DNA of 47,405 nucleotides from Oscillospiraceae bacterium (GTDB lineage Bacteria; Bacillota; Clostridia; Oscillospirales; CAG-272), in contig SVQV01000004.1 of assembly GCA_015065175.1 (NCBI GenBank), positions 1 to 47,405 on the forward strand, read 5' to 3'. Of the stretch, positions 13 through 16,604 are shown one piece after another. Both the position numbers and the translations under genes were made by a program. The notes under the pieces were generated by a model, which saw only the letters and a list, made by a program, of their open reading frames with translations, searched no databases and had not been told where the DNA came from. Position 1 is the stretch's first letter. Each line of letters opens with the position of its first letter.

Positions 13-1377
13 ATGGATTCCACTTCCTACTGCGGAAGAAAGCTTATCGGTATATTTGAGGATATGAACGACGCAATAGACGCGGCAAGCGCAGGCTATC
101 GCGCTATCCGTTCTATGAGAGTAGAGCAGAGAGAAAAGCTCATAACCTCTATCCGTGAGCTTGCACGCGCGGAAGCTCCTATAATGGCGGCGCTCGGCGT
201 GGCGGAAACAAAGATGGGACGCGTAGACCACAAGACCGCTAAGCACATTCTCGTAGCCGATAAAACTCCCGGCACAGAGGATATAGTTTCTGCCGTTAAG
301 ACAGGCGACTGCGGACTTACACTTACCGAAATGGCGCCCTTCGGCGTAGTCGGAAGCATTACTCCCAGCACCAACCCGAGCGAAACGGTGATCTGTAACA
401 GCATAGGTATGATAGCGGCAGGAAACGGAGTTGTATTCAACCCCCATCCTAATGCAATTGCTACATCGAACTATGCGGTAGACCTCGTAAACAGAGCATG
501 CGCCGCTGCGGGCGGACCCAAGGTGCTTGTTGCCTCTGTGGCAAAGCCCACACTTGATACAGCTAACATTATGTATAAGCATTCCGCTATCCGTCTTCTC
601 GTATGCACAGGCGGTCCCGGCGTTGTAAAGGCAGTTCTTTCCTCGGGTAAGAAGGCTATCGGCGCAGGTGCGGGAAATCCCCCTGTTATTGTTGACAATA
701 CAGCGGATATCGCAAAGGCTTCAAAGGACATCATAGACGGATGCACCTTTGACAATAACCTCCCCTGCATTGCGGAAAAGGAAGTATTCGCTTTTGCTGA
801 TATTGCGGATGAGCTTATCTCCGGAATGCTTAAAAACGGAGCGTATCTCATAACGAGAGAGCAGGCAGACGCGCTTGCGCAGATCGTTCTTGTAGATACA
901 AAGAATCCCAAGACAGGCATAGTCAAGAAGACCGTAAACCGTGACTGCGTAGGCAGAGACGCGGCAGTGCTTCTTGAGAAAATAGGTGTTAAGGTAGGAC
1001 CCGAAGTAAGATGCATTATATGCGAGACCCCCTTCGAGCATTTGTTCGTTCAGGAGGAGCTTATGATGCCTATTCTTCCTATCGTCAGAGTAAATAACAT
1101 CGACGAGGCTATAGAGCTTGCAGTTAAGGCAGAGCACGGAAACCGCCACACCGCACATATGCATTCCAAGAATATCGACAACCTCACACGCTTCGCACGT
1201 GCGGTTGAAACAACGATATTCGTTAAAAACGCTCCTTCCTATGCGGGCATAGGCTTTGGCGGAGAGGGACACACCACCTTCACCATTGCAGGTCCTACAG
1301 GAGAGGGAATTACCTCGGCAAAGAGCTTTACAAGACTTCGCCGCTGTGTAATGGCGGATAACTTCCGTATTATATAA
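13..1377 (+). CDS. pduP: CoA-acylating aldehyde dehydrogenase (EutE/PduP family)
   Basis: Oxidises an aldehyde, probably propionaldehyde, to its acyl-CoA with NAD+ inside the microcompartment. The 454 residues align from memory with E. coli EutE almost end to end. The motif FDNNLPC places the catalytic cysteine at residue 252, and ITPSTNPSE and the C-terminal TGEGITSAKSFTRLRRC are family hallmarks. An in-frame TAA at 7-9 fixes the start at ATG 13; the ribosome binding site lies off the window. Compared with EutE/PduP it lacks the N-terminal encapsulation helix of about 20 residues, and it has no C-terminal extension either, so how it enters the shell is unclear. It is 16 bp from the alcohol dehydrogenase gene and clearly in the same operon. 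Acetaldehyde cannot be excluded as substrate, but the diol dehydratase downstream favours propionaldehyde. Confidence 0.93.
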   Translation: MDSTSYCGRKLIGIFEDMNDAIDAASAGYRAIRSMRVEQREKLITSIRELARAEAPIMAALGVAETKMGRVDHKTAKHILVADKTPGTEDIVSAVKTGDCGLTLTEMAPFGVVGSITPSTNPSETVICNSIGMIAAGNGVVFNPHPNAIATSNYAVDLVNRACAAAGGPKVLVASVAKPTLDTANIMYKHSAIRLLVCTGGPGVVKAVLSSGKKAIGAGAGNPPVIVDNTADIAKASKDIIDGCTFDNNLPCIAEKEVFAFADIADELISGMLKNGAYLITREQADALAQIVLVDTKNPKTGIVKKTVNRDCVGRDAAVLLEKIGVKVGPEVRCIICETPFEHLFVQEELMMPILPIVRVNNIDEAIELAVKAEHGNRHTAHMHSKNIDNLTRFARAVETTIFVKNAPSYAGIGFGGEGHTTFTIAGPTGEGITSAKSFTRLRRCVMADNFRII

Positions 1378-1393
1378 TGAAAGGAATAAAGCA

Positions 1394-2590
1394 ATGGATT
1401 TGAGTGCTTCACAGGTTGAAAGCATTGTACGTAAGCTTCTCAGCGAAATGTCCGCTCCCGCTTGCGCGCAGGGCGAAATTCCCAAGACCGCAAAGGTCGC
1501 AATGCTCACCTCTCAAAAGAAAATAGAAGTAAAAGAATATCCCATTCCCGCTTTGGAGGATGATGACATTCTCGTTAAAGTAGAGGGATGCGGCGTGTGC
1601 GGTACAGACGTACACGAATGGAAGGGCGACCCCTTCGGACTTATCCCCGTTGTTCTCGGTCACGAGGGCACAGGCGAGATAATCGCTATGGGTAAAAATG
1701 TAAAATGCGATACAGCAGGCGTTCCCTTGAAGGTAGGCGACAAGATCGTTACCTCGGTTATAAGCTGCGGCGAGTGTCATATCTGCCGTATGCATCCCGC
1801 AAACACAAACCTCTGTGACAAACAGGGCGTATTCGGACTTATCGGTCACAATGACGCTCAGCCCTTGAACGGTTGGTTTGCCAGCCACCTCCTTATCAGA
1901 TCTAAGGGCGCTACATATTTCCAGGTAAATGACCTTAACTTGAACGAAAGAATGCTTCTCGAGCTTGCAACTGTTGCCGTTCACGCGTACAACAGAGGCG
2001 CATCTACAGGACTTCTTAACTTCAACAGCAAGGTTCTCGTACAGGGCTTAGGTCCTGTAGGACTTATGATGATATCTGTATTGAGAGCCGCAGGTATCAA
2101 CCACATCATCGCGATAGACGGAACTCCCAAGCGTCTTGAAATGGCTAAAAAGCTTGGCGCAAAGACTCTTATCAACTTCCGTGAGTGCGACACGCTCGAT
2201 AAGCGTATAGCGGCAGTTAAAGAGGTAGCAAACGGTGTAGGTGCTGACTTCGTATATCAGTGCACAGGCGCACCCGCTGCGGCATCCGACGCATATAGCT
2301 ATGTACGCAGAGGCGGCGGCTTCTGCGAAATGGGCTTCTTTGTAAACAACGGAGAATTTTCTATCAATCCTCACTTTGCTATGTGTAACAAGGAGATCAA
2401 CCTTGTAGGCTCATGGGACTACAGTGCTGAGGATTATCCCACAACTATGGCGTTCTTGCGTCAGGCAAAGGAAATGAAGATTCCGATAGAGGAGCTTATC
2501 ACACATTCTTATCCTCTCGAGCAGCTTAACGAGGCTATGGAGATGAATGTTTCTCAGCAGGGTATCAAGATCTGCTACAAGGCTGAATAA
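1394..2590 (+). CDS. Zinc-dependent medium-chain alcohol dehydrogenase with encapsulation peptide
   Basis: Probably reduces propionaldehyde to 1-propanol and so regenerates NAD+ inside the compartment, the role filled by iron-type PduQ elsewhere. Residues 1-19 form a short amphipathic helix (LSASQVESIVRKLLSEM) followed by a Pro/Ala-rich linker to about residue 33. This is the classic layout of a microcompartment encapsulation peptide. The catalytic domain has Cys69 in CGVCGTD, His90-Glu91 in GHEGTGEI, and structural zinc cysteines at 125, 128, 131 and 141. The nucleotide-binding motif is GLGPVG. A clear AAGGAA ribosome binding site precedes ATG 1394. The family also includes sorbitol and threonine dehydrogenases, so the substrate is inferred from the operon. 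Confidence 0.9.
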   Translation: MDLSASQVESIVRKLLSEMSAPACAQGEIPKTAKVAMLTSQKKIEVKEYPIPALEDDDILVKVEGCGVCGTDVHEWKGDPFGLIPVVLGHEGTGEIIAMGKNVKCDTAGVPLKVGDKIVTSVISCGECHICRMHPANTNLCDKQGVFGLIGHNDAQPLNGWFASHLLIRSKGATYFQVNDLNLNERMLLELATVAVHAYNRGASTGLLNFNSKVLVQGLGPVGLMMISVLRAAGINHIIAIDGTPKRLEMAKKLGAKTLINFRECDTLDKRIAAVKEVANGVGADFVYQCTGAPAAASDAYSYVRRGGGFCEMGFFVNNGEFSINPHFAMCNKEINLVGSWDYSAEDYPTTMAFLRQAKEMKIPIEELITHSYPLEQLNEAMEMNVSQQGIKICYKAE

Positions 2591-2612
2591 TTCATAAAAA
2601 GGAGCAGAGCCT

Positions 2613-2954
2613 ATGGCACTTGGTATGATTGAGGTCTACGGATTTACTACCGCTATCATTGTAGCCGACAAGGTTGCAAAGACAGCAGATGTCAAGGTAG
2701 TCGCTATCGATAAAAACAAACCCGCAAACGGCGACAGCGCAGAGGTGCCGCTTGTTATGATAGTAAAATTCGAGGGCGAGACCGCTGAGGTCGAGTCGGC
2801 GCTCGAAGCCGGCAAGGCTGAGGCTCAGAAGAGAAATCTGTATATCACCTCAAAGATTATTTCCAGACAGTCGGAGGACATTGAGTGGTTCGCTCACCTC
2901 TCGGCTTTGGGAAAAGACAAACTGCGCAAAGTAGATAAACCAACAAATAAATAA
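2613..2954 (+). CDS. BMC-H shell protein with extended pore loop and basic tail
   Basis: A hexamer-forming microcompartment shell protein of 113 residues. It starts with the typical MALGMIEVYGFTTAIIVADK strand-helix pattern of the BMC fold. Where its neighbours carry a short pore loop (KIGSG), it has a longer insertion around residues 33-46 (KNKPANGDSAEV). It also has a C-terminal tail of about 20 residues rich in lysine (DKLRKVDKPTNK). It lacks the IPRPH motif of the PduA-like shell proteins. A GGAG ribosome binding site lies before ATG 2613, 23 bp after the alcohol dehydrogenase. The longer pore loop suggests a pore with different selectivity or a closed pore; this is inference. Confidence 0.85.
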   Translation: MALGMIEVYGFTTAIIVADKVAKTADVKVVAIDKNKPANGDSAEVPLVMIVKFEGETAEVESALEAGKAEAQKRNLYITSKIISRQSEDIEWFAHLSALGKDKLRKVDKPTNK

Positions 2955-2984
2955 AAATAATTAATATAATTTAAGGAGAATGTT

Positions 2985-3263
2985 ATGATGAAAGAAGCAT
3001 TGGGTATGATCGAAACCAGAGGTCTTGTTGCGGCAATCGAAGCAGCAGATGCAATGGTAAAGGCAGCAAACGTTGAGCTTATCGGCAGCGAGAAGATCGG
3101 TAGCGGATTGGTAAGCGTTATGGTTCGCGGAGACGTAGGAGCTGTTAAGGCTGCTGTTGAAGCAGGCGGCGCGGCTGCATCTTCTCTCGGAGAGGTTATC
3201 GCTACTCACGTTATTCCTCGTCCTCATGCAGATGTTGAAAAGATCTTGCCTGCATTGAAGTAA
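2985..3263 (+). CDS. pduA: BMC-H shell protein, PduA/PduJ type (copy 1)
   Basis: A canonical 92-residue hexameric shell protein that should tile the facets of the compartment. The sequence [21 protein letters not shown], the pore loop KIGSG and the C-terminal [11 protein letters not shown] are standard for PduA, PduJ and EutM. The gene has a strong AAGGAG site and two adjacent ATGs, at 2985 and 2988. It is almost identical to the gene at 3596-3868, including most synonymous positions, so the two are recent duplicates or are being homogenised. Its conserved pore probably admits the diol substrate and releases product. Confidence 0.95.
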
Positions 3264-3271
3264 GATAAAGT

Positions 3272-3547
3272 ATGGAAAAAGCAATAGCGTTACTCGAGGT
3301 TCAGGCTATGGTTGCCGCCATAGCCGGACTTGACGCCATGGTAAAGGCGGCAGATGTGGAGCTTATTCATGTCGAGAAGCGCTTGGGCGGAAGACTTGTT
3401 ACAGTAGTAGTAGAAGGCACTGTTTCTGCGGTAGAAGCTGCCGCAAGAGTTGGCGCCGTCGAAGCCGCAAAGGTGGGAAAGGTCAAGCTGTGCGAAGTAA
3501 TAGCTCGCCCTCACCCCGACATTATGAAGTTCTTGAAATCAGAATAA
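3272..3547 (+). CDS. BMC-H shell protein, divergent (third paralogue)
   Basis: A 91-residue hexameric shell protein, clearly BMC-H but diverged from its two near-identical neighbours. It has MEKAIALLEVQAMVAAIAGLD, a pore-loop variant RLGGRL in place of KIGSGL, and a modified C-terminal ARPHPDIMKF. The gene starts only 8 bp after the previous stop and has no strong Shine-Dalgarno sequence, which suggests translational coupling to copy 1. The extra arginine in the pore loop may give a more positive pore. Confidence 0.92.
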   Translation: MEKAIALLEVQAMVAAIAGLDAMVKAADVELIHVEKRLGGRLVTVVVEGTVSAVEAAARVGAVEAAKVGKVKLCEVIARPHPDIMKFLKSE

Positions 3548-3595
3548 AAAAACAAATAAAATAATAAAAAACATTTTTTAATGGAGGAAATTAAA

Positions 3596-3868
3596 ATGGA
3601 AGCATTGGGAATGGTTGAAACCAGAGGTCTTGTTGCGGCAATCGAAGCAGCAGATGCTATGGTAAAGGCAGCAAACGTTATTCTTATCGGTAGCGAGAAG
3701 ATCGGTAGCGGTTTGGTAAGCGTTATGGTTCGCGGAGACGTAGGAGCTGTTAAGGCTGCTGTTGAAGCAGGCGGTGCGGCTGCATCTTCTCTCGGAGAGG
3801 TTATTGCAACTCACGTTATTCCTCGTCCTCACGCAGATGTTGAAAAGCTTCTTCCGAAGCTCAACTAA
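3596..3868 (+). CDS. pduJ: BMC-H shell protein, PduA/PduJ type (copy 2)
   Basis: A 90-residue hexameric shell protein nearly identical to the product of 2985-3263, differing at only a handful of residues near the ends and one internal Glu-to-Ile change. An upstream in-frame ATG at 3581 overlaps the ribosome binding site GGAGG (3583-3587), so ATG 3596 is the real start, at normal spacing. It is the last gene before the hairpin array at 3898-4082. PduA and PduJ of other species are likewise near-identical and abundant; which copy matches which cannot be decided here. Confidence 0.93.
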
Positions 3869-3897
3869 GCAAAAAGCCTAAGCTGAAAAAGCAAAGC

Positions 3898-4082
3898 AGG
3901 TATCGGGAATTATTCCCGATACCTCTCCCGCAAGGGGGAGGCAACGCAAGCGTTGCAGTGAAATATTTCGCCTTTGGCGAAATGTGAAATCTTGCTTCGC
4001 AAGGTGAAATTCGCGCTTTGTGCGAGTGAAATCTTTCGATTTCATCGAAAGGTTATGGTATAAATTTGCTTTGGCAAATTTA
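3898..4082 (+). repeat. Array of eight hairpins, several joined by a constant GTGAAAT linker
   Basis: This intercistronic stretch of the operon (3869-4183) holds no gene. It contains consecutive hairpins at 3898-3924 (13-bp arms), 3925-3940, 3941-3956 (7 bp), 3965-3983 (8 bp), 3991-4003 (5 bp), 4011-4025 (6 bp with one G-U), 4033-4051 (8 bp) and 4061-4082 (9 bp). The middle units are joined by the identical heptamer GTGAAAT at 3958, 3984, 4004 and 4026, and have TTT or TTC loops. Stem sequences all differ but are always self-complementary. There is no T-tract after the array, so it looks like an mRNA-structure element or dispersed repeat and not a plain terminator. Confidence 0.85.
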
Positions 4083-4183
4083 AATTTTATCAGTATTTTT
4101 CGAGTTAATAAAATCAGTAAAGTTGTAAACAATTCCGAGTTTTCGGATAGACATATATAAAATTTGGCATAGGAGTGTAGAAA

Positions 4184-4840
4184 ATGGAAATTAACAGCGC
4201 AGATATCGCCGCATTGGTGAAAAAGGTATTGAATCAGATGGAAAACGGCGCACATAGCACAGACGACGGAGATATTCCCGTAGGTGTTTCCAACAGACAT
4301 ATTCATTTGACAAAGGAGCATCTTGAAATCCTTTTCGGTGCAGGCTACGAGCTTACACACTTAAAGGACCTTTCTCAGCCCGGTCAGTATGCTTGTAAGG
4401 AGCTGCTTACCATAGTAGGACCTTCCTTGCGTCCTATTGAAAACGTAAGAGTTCTCGGCCCGCTTCGTTCCAGTTCTCAGGTTGAAATTTCCATGACCGA
4501 CTCTTATCAGCTCAAGGTAAAGCCTCCTGTAAGAGAATCGGGAAGCCTTGCAGGCTCCGCGCCTATCACTATATTAGGTCCTAAGGGAGTCGTAACACTT
4601 AAAGAGGGCTGTATAATAGCGAACCGCCATATCCATATGCATACAAGCGATGCAGCTCGCTTCGGGGTTTCGGACGGCGACTATGTTACAGTTGACGTAA
4701 ACGGAAAGAAACGTACAAGATGGTACGATGTTCAGATAAGAGTAAGCGACAAGTTCGCTCTTGAAATGCACGTTGATACAGATGACGCAAATGCGGCAGG
4801 TATCGGAAACGGCAGCAAGGTTAAGTTAATTAAAGAATAA
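4184..4840 (+). CDS. pduL: Phosphate propanoyltransferase PduL
   Basis: Converts propionyl-CoA and phosphate to propionyl phosphate, recycling CoA inside the shell. The 218-residue protein starts with an encapsulation helix (INSADIAALVKKVLNQM, residues 3-19) and a short acidic linker. Two PduL domains follow. The zinc-binding histidines are visible in the motifs SNRHIHLT (about residues 36-43), ANRHIHMH (about 146-153) and EMHVDTD (about 193-199). An AGGAG site precedes ATG 4184. No propionate kinase is seen downstream in the window, so the ATP-yielding step is encoded elsewhere or upstream. Confidence 0.96.
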   Translation: MEINSADIAALVKKVLNQMENGAHSTDDGDIPVGVSNRHIHLTKEHLEILFGAGYELTHLKDLSQPGQYACKELLTIVGPSLRPIENVRVLGPLRSSSQVEISMTDSYQLKVKPPVRESGSLAGSAPITILGPKGVVTLKEGCIIANRHIHMHTSDAARFGVSDGDYVTVDVNGKKRTRWYDVQIRVSDKFALEMHVDTDDANAAGIGNGSKVKLIKE

Positions 4841-4855
4841 AACGGAGAATAAGCT

Positions 4856-5104
4856 ATGTTAAAGGGAATCGTTGTCGGACATATTGTTTCCACGAGAAAG
4901 CAGGAAACCTTGGTAGGAAGTAAATTCCTCGAGGTCAATTTAATTGAAAACGGAAAAGAGACCGATAAATACATAATTGCCGTTGACAGTGTCGGAGCGG
5001 GTATTGGCGAGACGGTTCTCGTTACCACAGGCAGTCCCGCAAGACTTGCGCTCCGTGAGCAGAACGCTCCCGTGGATGCGGTCGTTGTAGGTATTGTAGA
5101 TTAG
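4856..5104 (+). CDS. pduN: BMC-P pentameric vertex protein (EutN/PduN/CcmL family)
   Basis: An 82-residue protein that caps the vertices of the polyhedral shell. It starts MLKGIVVGHIVSTRKQETLVG and has the DSVGAGIGETVLVTTGSPAR core typical of EutN, PduN and CcmL; AVVVGIVD closes the beta-barrel. Length is close to the family norm of 80-100 residues. A GGAG site lies just upstream and the gene is 15 bp from pduL and 14 bp from pduS, so it is co-transcribed. Confidence 0.96.
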   Translation: MLKGIVVGHIVSTRKQETLVGSKFLEVNLIENGKETDKYIIAVDSVGAGIGETVLVTTGSPARLALREQNAPVDAVVVGIVD

Positions 5105-5118
5105 TTTCGGAGATAGAT

Positions 5119-6438
5119 ATGTTTTCACAATTAAGAGAAAAAATGCGGCAAGCGGGAATTGTCGGCGCAGGCGGCGCAGGCTTTCCTTCTTATGCCAAGC
5201 TGACCGAAGACATAGATACCCTGATAATAAACGGCGCGGAATGTGAGCCTCTGCTCTATACCGATTATATAATCATGCGTGAGCAGATGCCGAAGGTTTG
5301 TCAGGGCATAAAGGAAATTGCCGATGCTATAGGTGTGAAAAGAGCCTTCCTTTCAATCAAGGCACACACGGCAAAAAAGCTTTCTCTCTCGGACGGAGAA
5401 AAGCTTTCGGACGATGTAACGGTCAGAGTTTTGCCCGACGTTTATCCTATGGGCGACGAGATAATTCTTATCTATCAGACTATAGGCAAGGTGGTAGCTC
5501 CCGGCAAGCTCCCTTCAAGCGTCGGAGTAATAGTATATAACCTTGAAACAGTTTTAAATACATATAATGTTGTTTTTGAGAACAGAGGTGTGACCGAGAA
5601 AACACTCACGGTCGGTGGAGACATCGAAACGCCCTGCGTTATAAAGGTTCCGCTCGGTGCGAGAGTTTCCGACATCTTTTCCTCACTCGGTATCAAGGTG
5701 GATGAGGATCATTCGGTCCTTGACGGCGGCCCTTCTATGGGCGCTATCATAAACCCGAACACCGCTATAGTGAAAAAGACAACAAAGGCGCTTCTCGTAT
5801 TGCCCAATACGTCGGAGGCGATAAAATCCAAGAGCATTACAATGGATGTACAGCTCAAGCGTGCGTCCTCGGCTTGCTGTCAGTGCACACGTTGCACCGA
5901 TATGTGTCCGAGAGCATTGCTCGGATATCCGCTCGAGCCTCACAGGCTTGTCCGTGTGGCTACCTCGAGCGAGGTCATAGACCCGTCACTCTTTACGAGC
6001 GCATCTATTTGCAGTAGCTGCGGAATTTGTACGACCGCCGCTTGCAGTCAGGGCATTTCCCCCAAGGATGTAATATTGAAGCTCAAATCCGAGCTTGCGA
6101 AAAACAAGCTCAGATTTTCGGAAAACGTAAATCCTGTTCCGTCGCCTCAGCGTGATTACAGACTTATCCCGAGTGAGCGTTGGAAAACACTTCTTGACGT
6201 TTCGGCTTTTGATAAGGAGATTGAGCTTTACACAAAAAATATAGAGATAAACAGAGTGGAAATTCCTATGCAGAGCCATATCGGCGCACCCTCCGTTCCG
6301 AAAGTAAAGGTAGGAGACAAGGTCGTTTGCGGAGATATGATAGCGGATGCATTTGACGGACTTTCCGTTCCGCAGTATGCATCTATTGACGGCAGGGTAA
6401 CCTTTGTCGATAATACAAGAATTTTGATAGAGAAATAA
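5119..6438 (+). CDS. pduS: PduS-like RnfC-type electron-transfer flavoprotein
   Basis: A 439-residue iron-sulfur flavoprotein thought to move electrons between the cytosol and the compartment interior through the shell. The N-terminal half has the RnfC/NuoF-type GIVGAGGAGFPSYAKL motif and NGAECEPLL for FMN and NADH binding. Two cysteine clusters follow: CCQCTRCTDMCP (about residues 253-264) and CSSCGICTTAAC (about 295-306). Both suit [4Fe-4S] centres, although the second has four residues before its last cysteine instead of the usual three. The C-terminal part has an RnfC-like biotinyl-type fold (HIGAPSVPKVKVGDKV). The gene is followed 12 bp later by pduT, its known partner. It is a paralogue of rnfC at 27150-28463. 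Confidence 0.94.
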   Translation: MFSQLREKMRQAGIVGAGGAGFPSYAKLTEDIDTLIINGAECEPLLYTDYIIMREQMPKVCQGIKEIADAIGVKRAFLSIKAHTAKKLSLSDGEKLSDDVTVRVLPDVYPMGDEIILIYQTIGKVVAPGKLPSSVGVIVYNLETVLNTYNVVFENRGVTEKTLTVGGDIETPCVIKVPLGARVSDIFSSLGIKVDEDHSVLDGGPSMGAIINPNTAIVKKTTKALLVLPNTSEAIKSKSITMDVQLKRASSACCQCTRCTDMCPRALLGYPLEPHRLVRVATSSEVIDPSLFTSASICSSCGICTTAACSQGISPKDVILKLKSELAKNKLRFSENVNPVPSPQRDYRLIPSERWKTLLDVSAFDKEIELYTKNIEINRVEIPMQSHIGAPSVPKVKVGDKVVCGDMIADAFDGLSVPQYASIDGRVTFVDNTRILIEK

Positions 6439-6450
6439 GGATAATTTATT

Positions 6451-6996
6451 ATGTATCAATCTGTTGGTGTAATTGAAATAAAAAGCATAGCAAAGGGCAT
6501 CGAAGCCTGTGACGCGGCACTTAAAAGCGCAGGTATAACGCTCGTTTCGGCGCATCCCGCCTGCCCGGGTAAGTATGAGATAATCATAACGGGCAGTATT
6601 TCGGACGTTACAGCCGCGCGCGACCACGTAAAAGGCAAGTACGGCTCCGCTTTGGTAGATGACTCCGTTATGGGACGTATAGATCCCCGTGTCATTTCCG
6701 CGCTATTCGGCACACAGACGGCAAAAAAAGAGGGAAGCATAGGAATAATAGAGACCTTCTCTGCTTCGAGCGCAATAAAAGCCGCCGATATTGCTGTCAA
6801 GACCGCGAGAGTGGAAATATATGACCTCAGAGTATCGAGAGGTATGGGCGGTAAGGGCATCGTGCTGGTAACAGGAGAGATAGGAGATGTTACCGCGTCG
6901 GTCGAGGCAGGCGCAAAGCATGCGCAGGATAACGGACTTCTGGCTAACACCTCGGTAATTCCCGCACCTCACGCAGAGCTGTGGGAGCAGATATAA
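6451..6996 (+). CDS. pduT: Tandem-BMC trimeric shell protein PduT, Fe-S type
   Basis: A 181-residue shell protein with two BMC domains (about residues 1-90 and 94-181) that forms pseudohexameric trimers. The loop ACPGK places a cysteine at residue 38, exactly the position that in Salmonella PduT binds a [4Fe-4S] cluster in the central pore. The C-terminal motif VIPAPHAELWEQI matches PduT as well. Together with PduS it should form the redox conduit through the shell. A short AT-rich gap separates it from the glycyl radical enzyme gene 27 bp downstream. Confidence 0.94.
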   Translation: MYQSVGVIEIKSIAKGIEACDAALKSAGITLVSAHPACPGKYEIIITGSISDVTAARDHVKGKYGSALVDDSVMGRIDPRVISALFGTQTAKKEGSIGIIETFSASSAIKAADIAVKTARVEIYDLRVSRGMGGKGIVLVTGEIGDVTASVEAGAKHAQDNGLLANTSVIPAPHAELWEQI

Positions 6997-7023: not shown

Positions 7024-9552
7024 ATGGAGAGAATAAAGTTTGTCATAGAAAAAAGCGAGCGTATAGAAAAGCTCAAAAGTGATCTGTATGCGAAAATGCC
7101 CGAAATAGAGGCAGACAGAGGTGTTCTCGTTACAGAGAGCTATATGGCTACAGAGAATTTGCCTATCGTACTCAGAAGAAGTGCGGCTTTTGCGCATATT
7201 CTCCGTAATATTCCGATAATCATCCGTGACGGAGAGCTTATAGTAGGCTCAAACTCAATAGCCCCCAGAGGCTGTCAGGTTTTCCCTGAGTATTCTTATG
7301 AGTGGCTCGAGGCAGAGTTCGATACTGTCGAGCATAGAGAAGCCGACCCCTTCTATATTTCCGAGGAAACAAAGGACAGACTCCGTAAGGTCTATCCTTA
7401 CTGGAAGGGCAAGACCACGAGTGACTTAGCTAAAGCAAACATGTCGCCCGAAGCCTATGCCGCTTTTACAAAGCACAATATGTTTACCGTCGGTAACTAT
7501 TTCTATAACGGCGTAGGTCATATCTGTGTAGATTATAAAAAGGTAATTACATACGGCTACGAGTCTATTATTGAGGAAGCCAAAGCCGCTCTCGCAAAGC
7601 TCAACAAGGGACAGGGCGACTATATTTCGAGAAGCAATTTCCTCTATGCCGTAATAGAGAGCTGTGAGGCGGTAATAGAATACGCTCACAGATATGCGAG
7701 CCTTGCGCGTGAAATGGCGGCAAAGGAGACAGACGCTGTAAGAAAGAGTGAGCTTCTTCTCATTGCCGAGAACTGTACCCGTGTACCCGCAAAGGGCGCG
7801 AGAAGCTTCTACGAGGCTTGCCAGTCCTTCTGGTTCGTACAGCAGCTCTTGCAGATGGAGTCGAGCGGTCACTCTATCTCTCCCGGACGCTTTGACCGTT
7901 ATATGTATCCCTTCTATAAGAAGGATATTGACGAGAAGAAAATTACAGTTGAGTTCGCTCAGGAGCTTCTTGACTGTATCTGGGTAAAATTGAACGATCT
8001 TAACAAGGTACGTGATGCCGCATCTGCCGAGGGCTTTGCGGGCTACGGTCTGTTCCAGAACCTCATTGTAGGCGGACAGGACGAGGATGGCCGTGATATG
8101 ACCAACGACCTTTCGTTTATGTGTATTGAAGCATCAATGCACGTAAGACTTCCTCAGCCCTCACTTACTATCCGAGTATGGAACGGCTCGTCATACGACC
8201 TTCTGCTTAAGGCGGTAGCGCTCACCCGTGAAGGGCTTGGCATTCCCGCATTCTATAACGATGAAGTGATTATTCCCGCTCTTATGTCGAGAGGTCTTAC
8301 TCTTGAAGAAGCCAGAGATTACTGTATCATCGGTTGTGTTGAGCCTCAGAAGGGCGGAAAAACAGACGGCTGGCATGATGCCGCATTCTTCAATATGTGC
8401 CGTCCTATGGAGCTTGTTTTCTCTAACGGCTACGATCAGGGAGTGCAGATAGGTCTGCCGACAGGCGACGTGCTAAAGATGAAGACCTTTGAAGAATTTT
8501 ATGATGCTTATAAGGCTCAGCAGGAATATATGGTTGAACTGCTCTGCAATGCCGACAACGCAGTTGACGCGGCTCACGCAGCTCGCTGTCCCTTGCCCTT
8601 TGAATCCTGTATGGTAGAGGATTGTATCGGCAGAGGAAAGAGCATTCAGGAGGGCGGTGCCGTATATAACTTTACAGGTCCTCAGGGCTTCGGTATTGCG
8701 AATATGACCGATGCTCTCTTAGCTGTAAAAGAGCTTGTATTTGACAAAAAGCTTGTTACAATGCAGGAATACAAGGAAGCGCTCGAAGCTAACTTCGGAC
8801 GCGGATTTAAGGGCAAGAAGGCTGAAGAAATGACAGTACAGATCGCCACAGCTCTTGCAAAGAGCGGAATTGAAGTAAATGACGCTCAGATAAAGGCTAT
8901 CTATAAGGAAGTTACCGAAAACGGCGGCGTTTCCGCTGAGAAGAAGGCAAGATATGACGAAATTCTCAAGATGATAGAAGCGCTTCCCAAATACGGAAAC
9001 GATATTCCCGAGGTTGACGCTATGGCGAGGTCGGTCGCATATACCTATACTCGCCCGGTTGAAAAATATACTAACCCCAGAGGCGGCAGATATCAGGCAG
9101 GACTTTACCCCGTATCCGCTAACGTTCCGCTCGGCGCGCAGACAGGCGCGACACCCGACGGCAGACTTGCGTTTACTCCTATTGCCGACGGCGTAGGACC
9201 TGCTTCGGGCAGAGACGTAAAGGGACCGACAGCGGCGGCAAATTCGGTTGCTAAGCTTGACCATCTGATTGCCTCAAACGGAACACTCTTCAATCAGAAA
9301 TTCCACCCCTCTGCGCTCAGCGGTATGGAAGGTCTCACTAAGTTTGTTTCGTATATAAGAGCATTCTTCGACCAGAAGGGTATGCATATGCAGTTCAACG
9401 TAATAAGCAGAGAAACACTTCTGGACGCGCAGGCTAATCCCGAAAAGTATAAGACACTTGTCGTGCGAGTTGCGGGCTACAGCGCGTTGTTTACGACACT
9501 TTCGAAGTCCTTGCAGGACGATATCATAAACAGAACCGAGCAGGGCTTCTGA
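7024..9552 (+). CDS. B12-independent glycyl radical diol (1,2-propanediol/glycerol) dehydratase
   Basis: The signature enzyme of the compartment: a glycyl radical dehydratase that converts a vicinal diol, most likely (S)-1,2-propanediol, to the aldehyde. The 842-residue protein has IIGCVEPQ with the thiyl radical cysteine at residue 438 and the general base Glu440, and RVAGYSALF with the glycyl radical at Gly818. Long stretches match, from memory, the glycerol dehydratase DhaB1 of Clostridium butyricum and the propanediol dehydratase of Roseburia inulinivorans, such as PLPFESCMVEDCIGRGKS. It is longer than DhaB1 because of an insertion at about residues 590-650. No encapsulation peptide is seen. 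A choline lyase is less likely given the diol-dehydratase-like C-terminal half. Confidence 0.93.
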   Translation: MERIKFVIEKSERIEKLKSDLYAKMPEIEADRGVLVTESYMATENLPIVLRRSAAFAHILRNIPIIIRDGELIVGSNSIAPRGCQVFPEYSYEWLEAEFDTVEHREADPFYISEETKDRLRKVYPYWKGKTTSDLAKANMSPEAYAAFTKHNMFTVGNYFYNGVGHICVDYKKVITYGYESIIEEAKAALAKLNKGQGDYISRSNFLYAVIESCEAVIEYAHRYASLAREMAAKETDAVRKSELLLIAENCTRVPAKGARSFYEACQSFWFVQQLLQMESSGHSISPGRFDRYMYPFYKKDIDEKKITVEFAQELLDCIWVKLNDLNKVRDAASAEGFAGYGLFQNLIVGGQDEDGRDMTNDLSFMCIEASMHVRLPQPSLTIRVWNGSSYDLLLKAVALTREGLGIPAFYNDEVIIPALMSRGLTLEEARDYCIIGCVEPQKGGKTDGWHDAAFFNMCRPMELVFSNGYDQGVQIGLPTGDVLKMKTFEEFYDAYKAQQEYMVELLCNADNAVDAAHAARCPLPFESCMVEDCIGRGKSIQEGGAVYNFTGPQGFGIANMTDALLAVKELVFDKKLVTMQEYKEALEANFGRGFKGKKAEEMTVQIATALAKSGIEVNDAQIKAIYKEVTENGGVSAEKKARYDEILKMIEALPKYGNDIPEVDAMARSVAYTYTRPVEKYTNPRGGRYQAGLYPVSANVPLGAQTGATPDGRLAFTPIADGVGPASGRDVKGPTAAANSVAKLDHLIASNGTLFNQKFHPSALSGMEGLTKFVSYIRAFFDQKGMHMQFNVISRETLLDAQANPEKYKTLVVRVAGYSALFTTLSKSLQDDIINRTEQGF

Positions 9553-9580: not shown

Positions 9581-10369
9581 ATGGACAGTTTAAATGACGT
9601 AAAGGGCAGAATATTCGATATACAGCGTTTTTCTGTTCACGACGGACCGGGAATACGTACCATAGTATTTTTGAAGGGCTGCCTTCTCAGATGCCGCTGG
9701 TGCTGTAATCCCGAGTCGCAGGAGTGGGATATTCAGCAGATGAATACCAAAAACGGTATTAAGACCGTAGGCGAGGATACCACAGTCGGCAAGGTCATGG
9801 AGGAGGTCGTAAAGGACGTTCCCTTCTATCTGCGCTCGGGCGGAGGACTTACTCTGTCGGGCGGCGAGGCTATGTGTCAGAGTGATTTTGCCATAGCGCT
9901 TTGCAAAGCCGCTCACGAATACGGCATAAATACCGCTATAGAGACAACGGCGGCTCTGCCGCAGGATGTTGTCGCGCGTGTGATTCCGCATATAGATTAC
10001 GTTATGCTTGACATCAAGCATATGAATTCGGATAAGCACAAGGAATTTACGGGCAGAGCGAATGAGCTGATTTTAGAGAACGCAAAATATATTGACGCTC
10101 ACGCCAAAAAGCTCATAATCCGTATTCCCGTCATTCCGACCTTTAACGATACACCGCAGGAGATATTGGATATTGCGAAATTCGCAAATTCCTTGCCGCA
10201 CGTTACAGACTTGCATTTGTTGCCGTATCACCGTTTGGGACAGGATAAATATGCGGGTCTTAACCGTGAATATCTTATGGGTGATATTCCCACTATACCA
10301 AACGAGAAAATGCAGTATTTGCTTGAGGTCGCTCAGCAGAGCGGCTTGAACTGCCGTATAGGCGGCTGA
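9581..10369 (+). CDS. Glycyl radical enzyme activase (radical SAM), short form
   Basis: Generates the glycyl radical on the upstream dehydratase using S-adenosylmethionine. The 262-residue protein has the radical SAM cluster motif with Cys34, Cys38 and Cys41 (CLLRCRWC), an extra Cys42, and the SGGE SAM-binding motif at about 93-96. Most activases paired with dehydratases carry a ferredoxin-like insertion with eight cysteines between NPES and the SGGG motif. Here that insertion is absent and residues 43-98 contain no cysteine, so the protein resembles pyruvate formate-lyase activase in size. A GGA-rich site precedes ATG 9581. The pairing with the upstream gene (28 bp away) makes the function secure. 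Confidence 0.95.
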   Translation: MDSLNDVKGRIFDIQRFSVHDGPGIRTIVFLKGCLLRCRWCCNPESQEWDIQQMNTKNGIKTVGEDTTVGKVMEEVVKDVPFYLRSGGGLTLSGGEAMCQSDFAIALCKAAHEYGINTAIETTAALPQDVVARVIPHIDYVMLDIKHMNSDKHKEFTGRANELILENAKYIDAHAKKLIIRIPVIPTFNDTPQEILDIAKFANSLPHVTDLHLLPYHRLGQDKYAGLNREYLMGDIPTIPNEKMQYLLEVAQQSGLNCRIGG

Positions 10370-10382
10370 TTTGGAGGAAATT

Positions 10383-10748
10383 ATGGAATTTTCTATGCAG
10401 GATAAAATGCGAATTATTCAGGAGCTTGTTCCGGGTAAGCAGGTAACTCTTGCGCATATTATCGCTAACCCCGACCAATCTCTTTACTATAAATTAGGAC
10501 TTGACCCCGCAGTCGAATATAAGAGAACGGCTATAGGTATTCTTACGGTAAGCCCCGCAGAGACCGCCGTTATTGCAGCCGACATCGCTATGAAGGCGTC
10601 GGGCGCTAACGTGGAGTTTGTTGACAGATTTACGGGTACGGTCATCATGACGGGAACGGTATCCGAGGTCGAAGCATCTACCGTCGCTATCGTTTCCTAC
10701 GTAAAGGATAAACTCGGCTATTCGGTCTGCGATATTACAAGAACATGA
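10383..10748 (+). CDS. pduU: Circularly permuted BMC-H shell protein (PduU/EutS family)
   Basis: A 121-residue shell protein matching EutS and PduU: RIIQELVPGKQVTLAHIIANPD at the start, GILTVSPAETAVIAADIAMK in the middle and GYSVCDITRT at the end. The family has a permuted BMC fold with a small beta-barrel that plugs the pore. The reading frame is open from a TTG at 10371, but GGAGG at 10373-10377 sits inside that extension, so ATG 10383 is the true start. It overlaps the next gene by 4 bp (ATGA). PduU is known to bind PduV, encoded next. Confidence 0.95.
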   Translation: MEFSMQDKMRIIQELVPGKQVTLAHIIANPDQSLYYKLGLDPAVEYKRTAIGILTVSPAETAVIAADIAMKASGANVEFVDRFTGTVIMTGTVSEVEASTVAIVSYVKDKLGYSVCDITRT

Positions 10749-11176
10749 AAAAGCTTATTCTTATCGGTCGTGTGGCGGCGGGTAAGACCACACTTACGCA
10801 GGCTCTCAGAGGAGAAGAATTACACTATTTTAAAACACAGTACATTCAGTACGGTGAGGCTATAATAGATACTCCGGGTGAATATACGGAGCTGAGGCAG
10901 CTAAGCGGCGCGCTTGCGTTATACGCTTACGAAGCCGATATAGTAGGTCTCGTAATAAGCGCGGATGACCCGTATTCTATATTCAGCCCGAATATAACCT
11001 GCTTAGTCAACAACCGAGAGGTAGTGGGAATCATTACGGGAATAGATAAGCCGAGAGCAAGACCCGACAGAGCGGAGCAGTGGCTTCGTATATCGGGATG
11101 CAAAAAGGTATTTCACGTCAGCTCTTACACGGGAGAGGGCGTTAAAGAGATATTGGATTACTTGAATAAAGACTAA
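10745..11176 (+). CDS. pduV: PduV/EutP-like small GTPase
   Basis: A 143-residue P-loop protein of the EutP/PduV family. The Walker A motif GRVAAGKTT starts at about residue 8, DTPGEY gives the G3 element, and TGIDKP near residue 98 resembles the TKxD guanine-specificity element, with Gly in place of Lys. PduV has been linked to movement and positioning of Pdu compartments and binds PduU. The translational overlap with pduU (ATGA) implies tight coupling. Its position directly before a ParA-type ATPase gene is notable. Confidence 0.9.
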   Translation: MKKLILIGRVAAGKTTLTQALRGEELHYFKTQYIQYGEAIIDTPGEYTELRQLSGALALYAYEADIVGLVISADDPYSIFSPNITCLVNNREVVGIITGIDKPRARPDRAEQWLRISGCKKVFHVSSYTGEGVKEILDYLNKD

Positions 11177-11191
11177 AAACGGGAGGAATTT

Positions 11192-11983
11192 ATGCCTGTA
11201 ACTAAAGTCATAGCCTTTGCTAACAATAAAGGCGGAAGCGGAAAATCAACTACCTGCTCGAATGTCGGCTATTGCCTCGCATCTCTTGGAAAAAAGGTGC
11301 TTCTTATCGACGGTGATATGCAGATGAATCTGACTCTCTCATTCTTTTCGGAGGATGAAGCTCTTGAATACGCAAAGGGCGGAAACAACCTGTATATTGC
11401 GGTAAAGGAGCAGAAGGATATCTCGGATTTTATAGCTAAAACCAACTACGAAAACCTCGACATCGTTCCGTCATCAACTCTTATGAGCTCGATAGAGGTT
11501 GACCTGTTTACAAAGTGGCAGAGAGAGTTTATTCTCCGCCGAGGGCTTGAAAATGTAAAGAAAAGTGGTCATTATGACTACATTCTGATAGATTCTCCGC
11601 CTACACTCGGCGGTTGGGTGATGAATATTCTTTGTGCCTCCGACCATCTGATAATTCCCGTCGAGGCAAGCCCGTGGGGACTCTTCGGTCTTGCAAATAT
11701 GTTTGATTTTTATTCTCAGGTAAAGACTATGTCTCCCGAGCTTGATTTGCTCGGCATAGTTATTACCAAGGCAGACGAGAGAAAGAACTATTTCAAGCAG
11801 GCACTGGACAGTCTTGGTTCAATTGAAGGTGTCCGTCTTTTTGAAAACATTATACGCGTAGACAGCGCAGTCGAGTGGGCGCAGGATAACAGTCAGCCTG
11901 TCGCTTCCTATAAGAAAAATTCGCGCAGTGCGAAGGAATATATCGAACTTGCAAAGGAGATAGATAAATATGTCAATAGGTAA
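11192..11983 (+). CDS. ParA/MinD-family ATPase, candidate microcompartment-positioning protein
   Basis: A 263-residue cytoplasmic P-loop ATPase of the ParA type. The deviant Walker A motif KGGSGKST has the signature Lys13 and catalytic Lys18. DGDMQMN (about 40-46) is the switch I region, and DSPPTLGG (about 131-138) the Walker B. ParA proteins bind nucleoid DNA as ATP dimers and move cargo through a partner that stimulates ATP hydrolysis. The gene follows pduV by 15 bp with a GGAGG site and overlaps the next gene by 14 bp, so it belongs to the microcompartment operon. No parB-like gene is adjacent. McdA does this job for carboxysomes; here the role is inferred from position only. Confidence 0.9.
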   Translation: MPVTKVIAFANNKGGSGKSTTCSNVGYCLASLGKKVLLIDGDMQMNLTLSFFSEDEALEYAKGGNNLYIAVKEQKDISDFIAKTNYENLDIVPSSTLMSSIEVDLFTKWQREFILRRGLENVKKSGHYDYILIDSPPTLGGWVMNILCASDHLIIPVEASPWGLFGLANMFDFYSQVKTMSPELDLLGIVITKADERKNYFKQALDSLGSIEGVRLFENIIRVDSAVEWAQDNSQPVASYKKNSRSAKEYIELAKEIDKYVNR

Positions 11984-12338
11984 GAATAGTATAAACCGTG
12001 TGTTTGTCGCTACAGGCGGCACGAAAGCAGAGCCCGAAGCAGTAGCAGAGGTAAAAGCTGAAACAGCTTCCGAAGAAAAGGCTGTAAAGAAAGCGCCCGA
12101 AGCGAAAAAGACCGAGAGCGCAAAAAAGACGCCTGCAAAGAAAGCTCCCGCCAAAAAAGCTCCTGCTAAAAAAGCGCCCGCAAAGAAAAAAGCAGACGTT
12201 GTAAAGGAAGTTATAACCGAGGTAAGAGCCGAGACTAATGTCTCCCCGAAAAAGCCCGCTTCGAAGAAATCTCCCAAAAAAGAAGAAAAGAAAGCCTACG
12301 TAAATATAGGCGACAAAATGCCCGAATATTTGCTTTAA
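11970..12338 (+). CDS. Disordered Lys/Ala/Pro-rich protein, putative ParA partner
   Basis: A 122-residue protein with no recognisable globular domain. Residues 1-17 (MSIGKNSINRVFVATGG) are a short basic segment. Residues 18-50 are Ala/Glu/Lys rich, and residues 54-73 are histone H1-like PAKKA repeats. The tail YVNIGDKMPEYLL has a non-repetitive, possibly structured, character. The PAKKA codons vary between repeats, so the repeat is kept at the protein level. AAAGGAGA at 11952-11959 and a 14-bp overlap with parA show translational coupling. Basic N-terminal peptides on ParA partners often trigger ATP hydrolysis, so this may be a McdB-like adaptor between shell and ATPase, or a DNA-binding linker. 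Family assignment is not possible by eye. Confidence 0.8.
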   Translation: MSIGKNSINRVFVATGGTKAEPEAVAEVKAETASEEKAVKKAPEAKKTESAKKTPAKKAPAKKAPAKKAPAKKKADVVKEVITEVRAETNVSPKKPASKKSPKKEEKKAYVNIGDKMPEYLL

Positions 12339-12346
12339 TTAATACT

Positions 12347-12391
12347 AAAAACCTCTTGCTGTAGAGATGATTTCTGCAACAAGAGGTTTTT
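12347..12391. terminator. Bidirectional terminator between convergent operons
   Basis: Arms at 12347-12358 and 12380-12391 (AAAAACCTCTTG and its complement) form a 12-bp stem with an A-run on one side and a T-run on the other. It ends the microcompartment operon on the + strand and the amidotransferase pair on the - strand. Confidence 0.88.
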
Positions 12392-12394
12392 GCT

Positions 12395-13096
12395 TTATTT
12401 GGTTCTTTTTGCTTCGCAGCGGGCGAAGAAATTTACGAAGAAATTCTGCTCGACAGGGTCAAGAGGAGCGCCGCGGTGGAAGGTCTGCTCGGGGTGCCAC
12501 TGGGTGGCGTAGATATCCGCTTCGCGCCATTCGATAGCTTCCACAATTCCGTCATCTGTCCAAGCGACCGATTTGAAATCGGGAGCGAGGACATTTGTGT
12601 GCCAAGCGTGATGCGAGTTGACTAATGCGCGTGTCTTGCCGAACACGTCATAAACAAAGGAGTTTTCGGCAATATTTATCATATGAGTATAAGTTTCTTT
12701 GTCCTTGTGATTGGGAAGGTCGGGAACCTTTGCCATTTTACCGCCGAAGAATACGTTCAGCGCCTGATGACCTCCGCAAATTCCGAAGATAGGCTTGCCT
12801 GCCTCATAGAAGGCTTTGATTATCTTAGAGTCCAAGGCGTATTCGTCGATAGCCTGAGGAGGATCAAAGGGTGCGCCGCCATAGTAGCTGGGGTCGATGT
12901 TTGCAGCAGAGCCGGGCACTAAAAGTCCGTCACAAACCGAGACTGCCGCATTTATCATCTGCTCGCTCATAATAGCCATCATACCGATGCCGTATTTATC
13001 TGCCATAAGCTTATAGTCATTCATTATATAATACCGCTGCTCGAAGAAAGGAGCCTTTTCCGTATCCATATAACGAAGAATGGTAGCAATATTCAT
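12395..13096 (-). CDS. Class-I glutamine amidotransferase-like hydrolase (peptidase C26), copy 2
   Basis: A 233-residue enzyme of the gamma-glutamyl hydrolase/PuuD type, which cleaves gamma-glutamyl amides such as gamma-glutamyl-GABA. The nucleophile is Cys107 in GICGGHQ and the catalytic pair is His201 and Glu203 in QWHPE. It is second in a tandem pair on the - strand, 27 bp after its paralogue; the C-terminal halves are much more alike than the N-terminal halves. No polyamine or glutamate gene is adjacent, so the natural substrate is open. Its convergent orientation separates it from the microcompartment operon. Confidence 0.87.
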   Translation of the reverse strand: MNIATILRYMDTEKAPFFEQRYYIMNDYKLMADKYGIGMMAIMSEQMINAAVSVCDGLLVPGSAANIDPSYYGGAPFDPPQAIDEYALDSKIIKAFYEAGKPIFGICGGHQALNVFFGGKMAKVPDLPNHKDKETYTHMINIAENSFVYDVFGKTRALVNSHHAWHTNVLAPDFKSVAWTDDGIVEAIEWREADIYATQWHPEQTFHRGAPLDPVEQNFFVNFFARCEAKRTK

Positions 13097-13123: not shown

Positions 13124-13825
13124 CTATTTTGTTCTTCTTGCTTCACAGCGGGAAAGGAAGTTCTCAAAGAATTTATGCTCGATAGGATCGAGCGGCTCGC
13201 CGCGGTGGAAGGTCTGTTCGGGGTGCCATTGAGTTGCGTAAATGTCGGCTTCGCGCCATTCGATAGCTTCCACAATTCCGTCGTCTGTCCAGGCTACAGG
13301 CTTGAAATCGGGGGCGAGGACGTTGGTATGGCGTGCGTGGTGTGAGTTGACTAACGCGCGTGTTTTGCCGAATACGTCATATACGAAAGAGTCTTCGGCA
13401 ATATTTATCATATGAGTATAGCTTTTTGAATCCTTGTGGTTGGGAAGGTCGGGAACCATTCCTAACGTACCGCCGAAAAAGACATTTAAATACTGCTGAC
13501 CGCCGCAAATACCGAAAATAGGCTTGCCTGCTTCGTAAAAAGCTTTGATGACCTTCGAGTCCAAGGCGTATTCGTCTACGGGCAATGGTGGATCTGCGGG
13601 CGCTCCTCCATAGTAGGAGGGATCTACACCTACGGCAGTACCGGGAAGTATGAGTCCGTCACACGCATCTACCGTAGCTTTGATAGCTTCTTCACTCATA
13701 ACGGCAAGCATTCCTATACCGTACTTGTCAGCCATCAGCTTATAGTCCTGCATGATAAAATATTTGTAGTCGAAAAGGCCTCCCTTTTTCATATCCATAT
13801 AACGCAGAGTTGTAGCAATATTCAC
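13124..13825 (-). CDS. Class-I glutamine amidotransferase-like hydrolase (peptidase C26), copy 1
   Basis: A 233-residue paralogue of the downstream gene with Cys107 in GICGGQQ and the QWHPE His-Glu pair at 201 and 203. It starts with GTG (complement of CAC at 13823-13825), preceded by an AGAGG site. The aligned N-terminus of the paralogue uses ATG at the same place, which supports this start. A near-consensus promoter lies at 13881-13909. The two genes form a small operon. The predicted reaction is hydrolysis of a gamma-glutamyl bond; the physiological substrate cannot be read from the sequence. Confidence 0.87.
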   Translation of the reverse strand: MNIATTLRYMDMKKGGLFDYKYFIMQDYKLMADKYGIGMLAVMSEEAIKATVDACDGLILPGTAVGVDPSYYGGAPADPPLPVDEYALDSKVIKAFYEAGKPIFGICGGQQYLNVFFGGTLGMVPDLPNHKDSKSYTHMINIAEDSFVYDVFGKTRALVNSHHARHTNVLAPDFKPVAWTDDGIVEAIEWREADIYATQWHPEQTFHRGEPLDPIEHKFFENFLSRCEARRTK

Positions 13826-15839: not shown

Positions 15840-16604
15840 ATGAAACAGTCAATGGTTTTTGCAGTTTACGGATGTACATACGTACCGCAAATGTGGGAGA
15901 AGCATTTTTGTTCAAGCTCAATAAACAGACTATATTATATCCATTCGGGAAGCGGCGGATATATGCTGCACGGAAAAAAATATCCCTTTGAAAAAGGGAA
16001 GATATATTTCATTTCTTCAAGCGCGGATGCAGTCGCCTATTCCGAGGAAAGCGATCCAATATTTCATTCGTATTGCGATTTTGAAATTCTCCCGACTATC
16101 ATAACTCCGAAGGTCCTCTGCTTTTCTCCCGAGGAAAATTCCATGGACAGAGTCGCCGCAGAGGTTTTTAACGAGGGATGCCGAAGGGCTACGGAAAGAC
16201 GTGAGAACGGTCTTTCCTTCGTCTTGCAGGAGAAGGAAGAGGCTCTTTTTCGCTCGGCAGTCCTCTATCTTACCGAGCGGGCAAAGGAAATTATGTCGGA
16301 GGATATCATAGACGATGAGGAAATATTGAAAGCCATTGAATATATGCATAAAAATATAGACAAGAAGATCACCGTCGAAAAAATAGCCGCCGACAGCTTT
16401 ATGTCCGACGGAGGCTTTATTAAAAAATTCAAAAAATGCGTTGGTGTTACTCCGTATGTATATCTGCGAAACATAAGGCTGAACATGGCAGATTATCTTA
16501 AAGAGTTGGGATACACCCTCGAATATATAGCCGAAAAGGTCGGTTATTCGGACGCTGTCTCCTTAAATCACGCGATGAGACGAAACAAAAGCAGAAAAGA
16601 CTGA
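15840..16604 (+). CDS. AraC-family transcriptional regulator
   Basis: A 254-residue DNA-binding regulator, divergent from the fucosidase gene and so the likely controller of it. The N-terminal 150 residues have a cupin-like sensing domain (the segment with HSGSGGYMLHGKKYPFEKGK is typical). From about residue 165 comes the paired helix-turn-helix: IDKKITVEKIAADSFMSDGGFIKKFKK, then TLEYIAEKVGYSDAVSLNHAMRR. The protein stops soon after the second helix-turn-helix, without the usual FGxTPxxYR tail, so about 10 residues seem lost. Ligand is probably a sugar, perhaps fucose or a fucosylated glycan (inference). Confidence 0.88.
   Translation: MKQSMVFAVYGCTYVPQMWEKHFCSSSINRLYYIHSGSGGYMLHGKKYPFEKGKIYFISSSADAVAYSEESDPIFHSYCDFEILPTIITPKVLCFSPEENSMDRVAAEVFNEGCRRATERRENGLSFVLQEKEEALFRSAVLYLTERAKEIMSEDIIDDEEILKAIEYMHKNIDKKITVEKIAADSFMSDGGFIKKFKKCVGVTPYVYLRNIRLNMADYLKELGYTLEYIAEKVGYSDAVSLNHAMRRNKSRKD

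Follow-up and report, generated by a model that had tools for sequence, protein, structure and literature searches.

A ParA-type ATPase and a small lysine-rich protein encoded at the end of a glycyl radical microcompartment operon probably constitute an McdAB-like positioning pair for a propanediol bacterial microcompartment (BMC). From the sequence comparisons, the probability of this reading is put at about 0.8. Its observed basis is the conserved gene pair, the conserved ends of the small protein, co-occurrence with one BMC type whether or not the genes are linked, the ParA fold, and a similar tail on some PduV proteins. An earlier note on this DNA had proposed an McdAB-like pair for a fermentative microcompartment, and the gene pair, the two ends and the BMC co-occurrence favor that proposal.

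The microcompartment operon and its ParA gene

The window, the whole 47,405-nucleotide stretch analyzed, opens inside a BMC operon on the plus strand. An acylating-type aldehyde dehydrogenase gene stands at the head, and genes for a Zn-ADH, four single-BMC-domain shell proteins, PduL, EutN, an RnfC/PduS-like protein and BMC-T complete the segment from 13 to 6996. These are followed by genes for a glycyl radical diol dehydratase (7024-9552), its activase (9581-10369; TIGR02494, 3.9e-86, above cut-off), an EutS/PduU-like shell protein (10386-10748) and a pduV/eutP-like GTPase (10745-11176; PF10662, PduV-EutP, 1.1e-46). Intergenic gaps are shorter than 35 bp, save one of 315 bp. The glycyl radical enzyme (GRE), activase, aldehyde dehydrogenase, ADH, PduL and shell genes all lie in one locus, the gene content of a B12-independent propanediol BMC (GRM). 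Among the 31 PDB sequences listed, the GRE matches the diol dehydratase 5i2a best (1244 bits, runner-up 1013), so the predicted substrate of the compartment is most likely 1,2-propanediol. A Gut-1 RNA (3956-4037, plus strand; RF01706, 67.2 bits, gathering threshold 50) occupies part of the 315-bp gap, which separates pduL from the preceding single-domain shell genes.

The ParA gene (11192-11983, plus strand) encodes 263 residues, starts 15 bp past pduV and is preceded by GGGAGGAATT. The gene for the small protein, here called the adaptor (11970-12338, plus strand; 122 residues), starts 14 bp inside ParA. A hairpin with a U tail at 12346-12392 (plus strand) is a probable terminator; its folding energy of -24.8 kcal/mol (z -7.2) was reached by 0 of 200 shuffles, and the hairpin is absent from the list of a simple terminator scan. 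The overlap, the operon spacing after pduV and the terminator had all been described in the earlier note and are borne out.

Just beyond the operon, tandem Peptidase_C26 genes (12398-13096 and 13127-13825, minus strand) are 79% identical and probably reflect a duplication. An alpha-L-fucosidase gene (PF01120, 14644-15660, minus strand) lies nearby and is adjoined by a gene with an AraC-type HTH (15840-16601, plus strand). The fucosidase would fit propanediol derived from fucose.

The proposed nucleoid-bound motor matches AAA_31 (PF13614, 4e-53). Its deviant Walker A motif is complete, as had been claimed, and reads NKGGSGKST; KGGSGK is invariant across 34 aligned orthologues. The fold is nearest Soj/ParA, and with Cyanothece McdA as the McdA compared, the protein also ranks nearer Soj/ParA. 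In PHROGs it matches a ParA-like family and, weakly, a second family that has no known function. The same genome encodes a separate Soj with its own ParB.

The adaptor, its variants and the PduV tail

The window's small protein has zero Pfam matches at E 0.01 and none in a PHROGs scan, and the NCBIfam histone H1-like model, whose cut-off is 80, scores 22 bits. Its composition suggests that it is probably disordered. It starts with MSIGKNSINR (11970-11999), the proposed ParA contact, carries TPAKKAPAKKAPAKKAPAKKK and ends in GDKMPEYLL, of which MPEYLL (12318-12335) is the proposed shell dock. ParA orthologues above 200 bits define 135 loci with 115 distinct ParA sequences. An ORF with both end motifs lies directly 3' of ParA in 124 of these loci (106 distinct sequences) and is missing there in 11 (10 distinct ParA sequences). 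The offset between the two genes is -14 in 86 of the 106 distinct adaptors. This downstream rate and the recurring offset show that the small ORF is not a chance occurrence.

The adaptors begin with GKx[SA]IxR and end with (L/M)Px(Y/H/F/W)LL. Among the 106 distinct sequences, the aligned N-terminal places hold K in 101, I in 94 and R in 94, the R not being a selection criterion; conserved K and R/K among the ten N-terminal residues make this end basic. Tail position -3 is Y in 73, H in 20, F in 8 and W in 5, which gives an aromatic Y, F or W in 86 with Tyr in the window, and L occupies -2 in 105 and -1 in 99. Conservation at these positions is partly by construction because the rows were partly picked by both end motifs; the 124/135 rate and the fixed -14 offset are independent facts. 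In a reverse count across the loci examined, the tail motif closes 145 ORF segments of at least 60 residues, 139 of which have the N-terminal motif within their first 60 residues. The other six are two adaptors read from farther upstream, two PduV proteins and two unrelated ORFs.

The 98 linker-type adaptors range from 69 to 202 residues, and their middles are rich in K, A, T, E and P. At least three AKK/PAKKA-like repeats occur in 72 of the 98 and in none of the eight remaining adaptors, which carry a ParB domain. The basic N-terminus and distinct tail reported earlier for the small protein hold across the family, but the PAKKA repeats are not universal; the parts that appear conserved are the two ends, and the PAKKA middle is common and variable. 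The role of adaptor that had been given to the lysine-rich protein is supported with two amendments: its lysine-rich middle is a variable linker for which a ParB N-terminal domain (ParB_N) can substitute, and an AraC gene takes the place of the whole adaptor in seven loci.

Those seven AraC genes lie directly 3' of ParA and were identified by Pfam in L106 and L109 and by plain similarity in L128, L129, L130, L134 and L135. Nothing recognizable as an adaptor follows ParA in L113 and L126/L173, and in L022 the adaptor's N-terminal start is present and the ORF ends early. No adaptor was found near ParA in the adaptor-less loci within stretches of 3.8 to 20.8 kb, and a genome-wide DNA pattern of limited sensitivity likewise gave none. 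Short ORFs of L126, L129, L130 and L173 were considered as adaptors and rejected under the rule that both end motifs be present.

ParB_N lies between both end motifs in 8 of the 106 adaptors, which come from at least two families (f49 and f71). All six ParB_N adaptors tested scored above the Pfam cut-off for PF02195, and both of the two compared with the NCBIfam ParB and Noc models matched below the cut-offs. A profile of all eight matches Noc, Spo0J and ParB structures, with Noc 7nfu the best (6.5e-18). The HTH and C-terminal domain of ParB are absent from all eight aligned sequences. In this alignment the G and R of the GERR motif are kept, and the QPR and ENLQR motifs are missing. A structure prediction for the L110 adaptor from a two-sequence alignment gave a pLDDT of 42 and was set aside, so the ParB assignment rests on the profile matches. 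On the ParA tree the ParB_N form requires three changes; one ParB_N group branches first, the support for the rest being modest (82). On this tree the domain may equally be ancestral and repeatedly lost or gained more than once.

A tentative reading, which we hold to be somewhat improbable as it stands, is that the Clostridia BMC adaptors descend from ParB. They would have kept an N-terminal ParA-activating peptide, lost the DNA-binding half, gained an Lxx(aromatic)LL shell-docking tail, and mostly replaced ParB_N by a disordered Lys/Ala linker. If this is true, the ParB_N adaptors are surviving intermediates on the way from DNA segregation to organelle positioning, and it is on the origin of organelle positioning that these forms bear. 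The literature searched gave no paper linking a ParB domain with a bacterial microcompartment, and the main text of a ParB-fold survey contains none of the words 'microcompartment', 'carboxysome' and 'McdB' (PMC12704722). McdB of S. elongatus is reported, in the excerpt used, to lack similarity to ParB (PMC6328274).

A Lys-rich C-terminal extension with an Lxx(W/H)LL end is also found on 10 of 93 distinct PduV sequences (L039, L051, L054, L058, L059, L060, L073, L080, L082 and L111), which are near relatives of one another. The adaptor is present at all 10 loci. The PduV of the window lacks the tail. Among the remaining 14 operon proteins, with ParA counted among them, 0 of 1293 distinct sequences have it. 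If the tail served as a common shell-docking tag, two different BMC proteins would be expected to share a basic linker with Lxx(aromatic)LL; the arrangement fits such a tag and does not prove it.

Co-occurrence with one compartment type

Among the best 80 of 279 ParA relatives, 55 have pduV at most 1.3 kb upstream and three have a different BMC gene or genes there; the stretch analyzed around the other 22 is free of BMC genes. The earlier note had regarded homologues lying mostly away from BMC loci as evidence against the pair; 58 of these 80 sit behind BMC genes, and all 22 genomes with unlinked genes have BMC shell genes elsewhere. Within the window's genus (22 loci, seven of them on the minus strand), the count of neighbors covers the 15 plus-strand loci, all of which lie behind pduV. 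The ParA orthologue and the BMC occur in the identical 23 of 60 same-genus genomes (Fisher 4e-17). The other 38 same-order genomes of the genus sample have no ParA orthologue. BMCs are present without a ParA orthologue in the same-order genomes G091 and G093, and the ParA match of G082 is below cut-off.

Family f49 was sampled as 180 genomes, one per genus; it is termed Lachnospiraceae-like since G484 shares its coordinates with the Blautia schinkii genome of L105. ParA is present in 22 and a BMC in 52, with all 22 ParA carriers among the 52 (3e-14, in a test that, like the others here, treats genomes as independent, kinship being lessened and not removed by one genome per genus). In 13 of the 22 carriers the surroundings of ParA, mostly about 9 kb on each side, contain no BMC gene; the listed shell genes of these 13 are on another contig or more than 80 kb away, apart from G536, which has a ParA contig of only 8.5 kb and a single shell match of unplaced position. 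The window's BMC type is found in 20 of the 22 carriers, the exceptions being G536, with no BMC locus for comparison, and G567, with another type. The Zn-ADH marker of the window's BMC type is present in 20 of 22 ParA-positive versus 16 of 158 ParA-negative genomes (8e-15). Among the 52 BMC genomes, 20 of the 35 that bear the marker have ParA, compared with 2 of the 17 that lack it (Fisher 0.0025).

The 15 of 35 marker-bearing BMC genomes that have no ParA indicate that the pair is dispensable. A DNA pattern for the adaptor N-terminus gave an orphan adaptor in 0 of 30 ParA-negative f49 BMC genomes; where f49 genomes have a known adaptor the pattern recovered it in 10 of 16, so this miss counts for little, and half of the 20 matches fell on unrelated ORFs. 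In G567, a ParA of the BMC-associated type (L200) has a BMC locus about 5-7 kb away that is of another, possibly Eut-like type, perhaps a cargo switch.

The class sample has ParA in 7 of 393 genomes, all seven among the 103 with a BMC. ParA and BMC are both present, again unlinked, in 5 of 5 genomes of the small family f71, which offers no contrast since all five have both; the marker enzymes are in the BMC locus of four, and the fifth locus is incomplete. Six pduV-linked loci (L046, L053, L057, L065, L066 and L078) have no GRE or activase between BMC-T and EutS and keep the shell genes, PduV and the ParA pair, so the pair follows the shell and PduV. Only some of the unlinked ParA genes have neighbors that suggest the pathway. 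In L106 and L109, ParA is beside an AraC gene and a rhamnulokinase gene (TIGR02627, above cut-off), and the rhamnose pathway with rhamnulokinase yields propanediol (PMC5322786, in excerpt). Others adjoin genes with no such connection, for example those for aspartate kinase (L107) and beta-aspartyl-peptidase (L085). Cultured carriers of the pair include Blautia and Robinsoniella.

Positioning model, alternatives and known systems

In the proposed mechanism, ATP-bound ParA dimers would coat the nucleoid while the (L/M)Px(Y/H/F/W)LL tail of the adaptor docks onto the shell. The variable linker would present the GKx[SA]IxR peptide, which would bind ParA, trigger ATP hydrolysis and strip ParA from DNA. 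The compartment may then follow the ParA gradient, and compartments would be spaced and inherited. Docking, activation and movement are predictions of this model. Several results count against it: the loci where ParA is followed by an AraC gene or by no recognizable adaptor, the 15 marker-bearing genomes and the same-order G091 and G093 that have a BMC without a ParA orthologue, the His in 20 of 106 tails, the different BMC type of G567, and the Salmonella Pdu compartments described below. The model bears on how non-carboxysome BMCs are positioned by defining a family associated with one BMC type, and it offers two short testable motifs, a tail common to the adaptor and some PduV proteins, and natural adaptor-less variants.

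Control of BMC assembly, number or expression, not of position, is a quite improbable role for the pair. ParA lies beside a regulator gene in seven loci, and positioning is not the role of every ParA/MinD relative, BcsQ being an example, but ParA and the adaptor carry no regulatory domain and the two-ended anatomy of the adaptor matches McdB-type positioning partners. Least probable of all is that these are ordinary ParAB partition genes of a plasmid or chromosome that lie near BMC genes by happenstance. The Soj/ParA-like fold and the ParB_N of some adaptors would suit partition; against it stand the strict BMC co-occurrence and the separate Soj and ParB of the genome. The ParB with HTH and parS binding that marks ParABS is not seen, the window's adaptor being free of Pfam domains and the eight aligned ParB_N relatives lacking HTH and C-terminal domain.

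A nucleoid tether, in which the H1-like Lys-rich middle binds DNA in the manner of PhaM or AlgP, the tail holds the shell and ParA only tunes the process, is unlikely, if less so than these two. Net positive middles in 95 of 98 linker-type adaptors (median +8) and the repeats in 72 speak for a tether, and there is precedent in PhaM, PhaF and AlgP, which attach granules to the nucleoid (PMC13052382, in excerpt). However, the middles of three linker-type adaptors are negative, those of the eight ParB_N adaptors range from -6 to +5 with no repeat arrays, and ParA is retained even where the adaptor is not found. Positioning by an McdAB-like pair remains the preferred reading.

The adaptors share with the ParB/Noc family the N-terminal domain present in 8 of 106, and differ from it in that the ParB_N forms have no HTH or C-terminal dimer domain and have degraded CTP motifs. 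PadC likewise has a ParB fold and brings ParA to a structure made of protein, but its cargo is the bactofilin cytoskeleton and the proposed cargo here is the BMC shell (PMC12704722, in excerpt). ParA is listed among ancillary BMC genes in the part of PMC4207490 used, and reviews mention McdAB-like genes near some BMC operons and no more (PMC13052382, PMC8262871). The distribution of Salmonella Pdu compartments is unchanged without ParA or MinD (PMC12866334, partial text). Within the parts of the literature covered, we did not come across the co-occurrence without linkage, either end motif of the adaptor, the tail on PduV or the adaptors with ParB_N.

McdB-like proteins with Y or F among the last five residues have been predicted for several BMC types, including PDU and GRM (PMC11321042, PMC8262871), so this kind of pair was predicted before. 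The putative McdB-like proteins of PDU/GRM loci share the predicted role and BMC class of the adaptor, a comparison made on their published descriptions. With McdAB of alpha- and beta-carboxysomes the pair has in common a ParA-type ATPase, a small downstream partner and a BMC cargo, and the partner has a basic N-terminus and, in 86 of 106 adaptors, an aromatic near the C-terminus, His standing there in the other 20. For H. neapolitanus McdB, a stretch of 20 N-terminal residues is enough to bind McdA (excerpt of PMC12204374), and the C-terminal aromatic of McdB is required for carboxysome association (PMC11321042). That aromatic is a C-terminal Trp in carboxysome McdB and Tyr at -3 in the window's adaptor.
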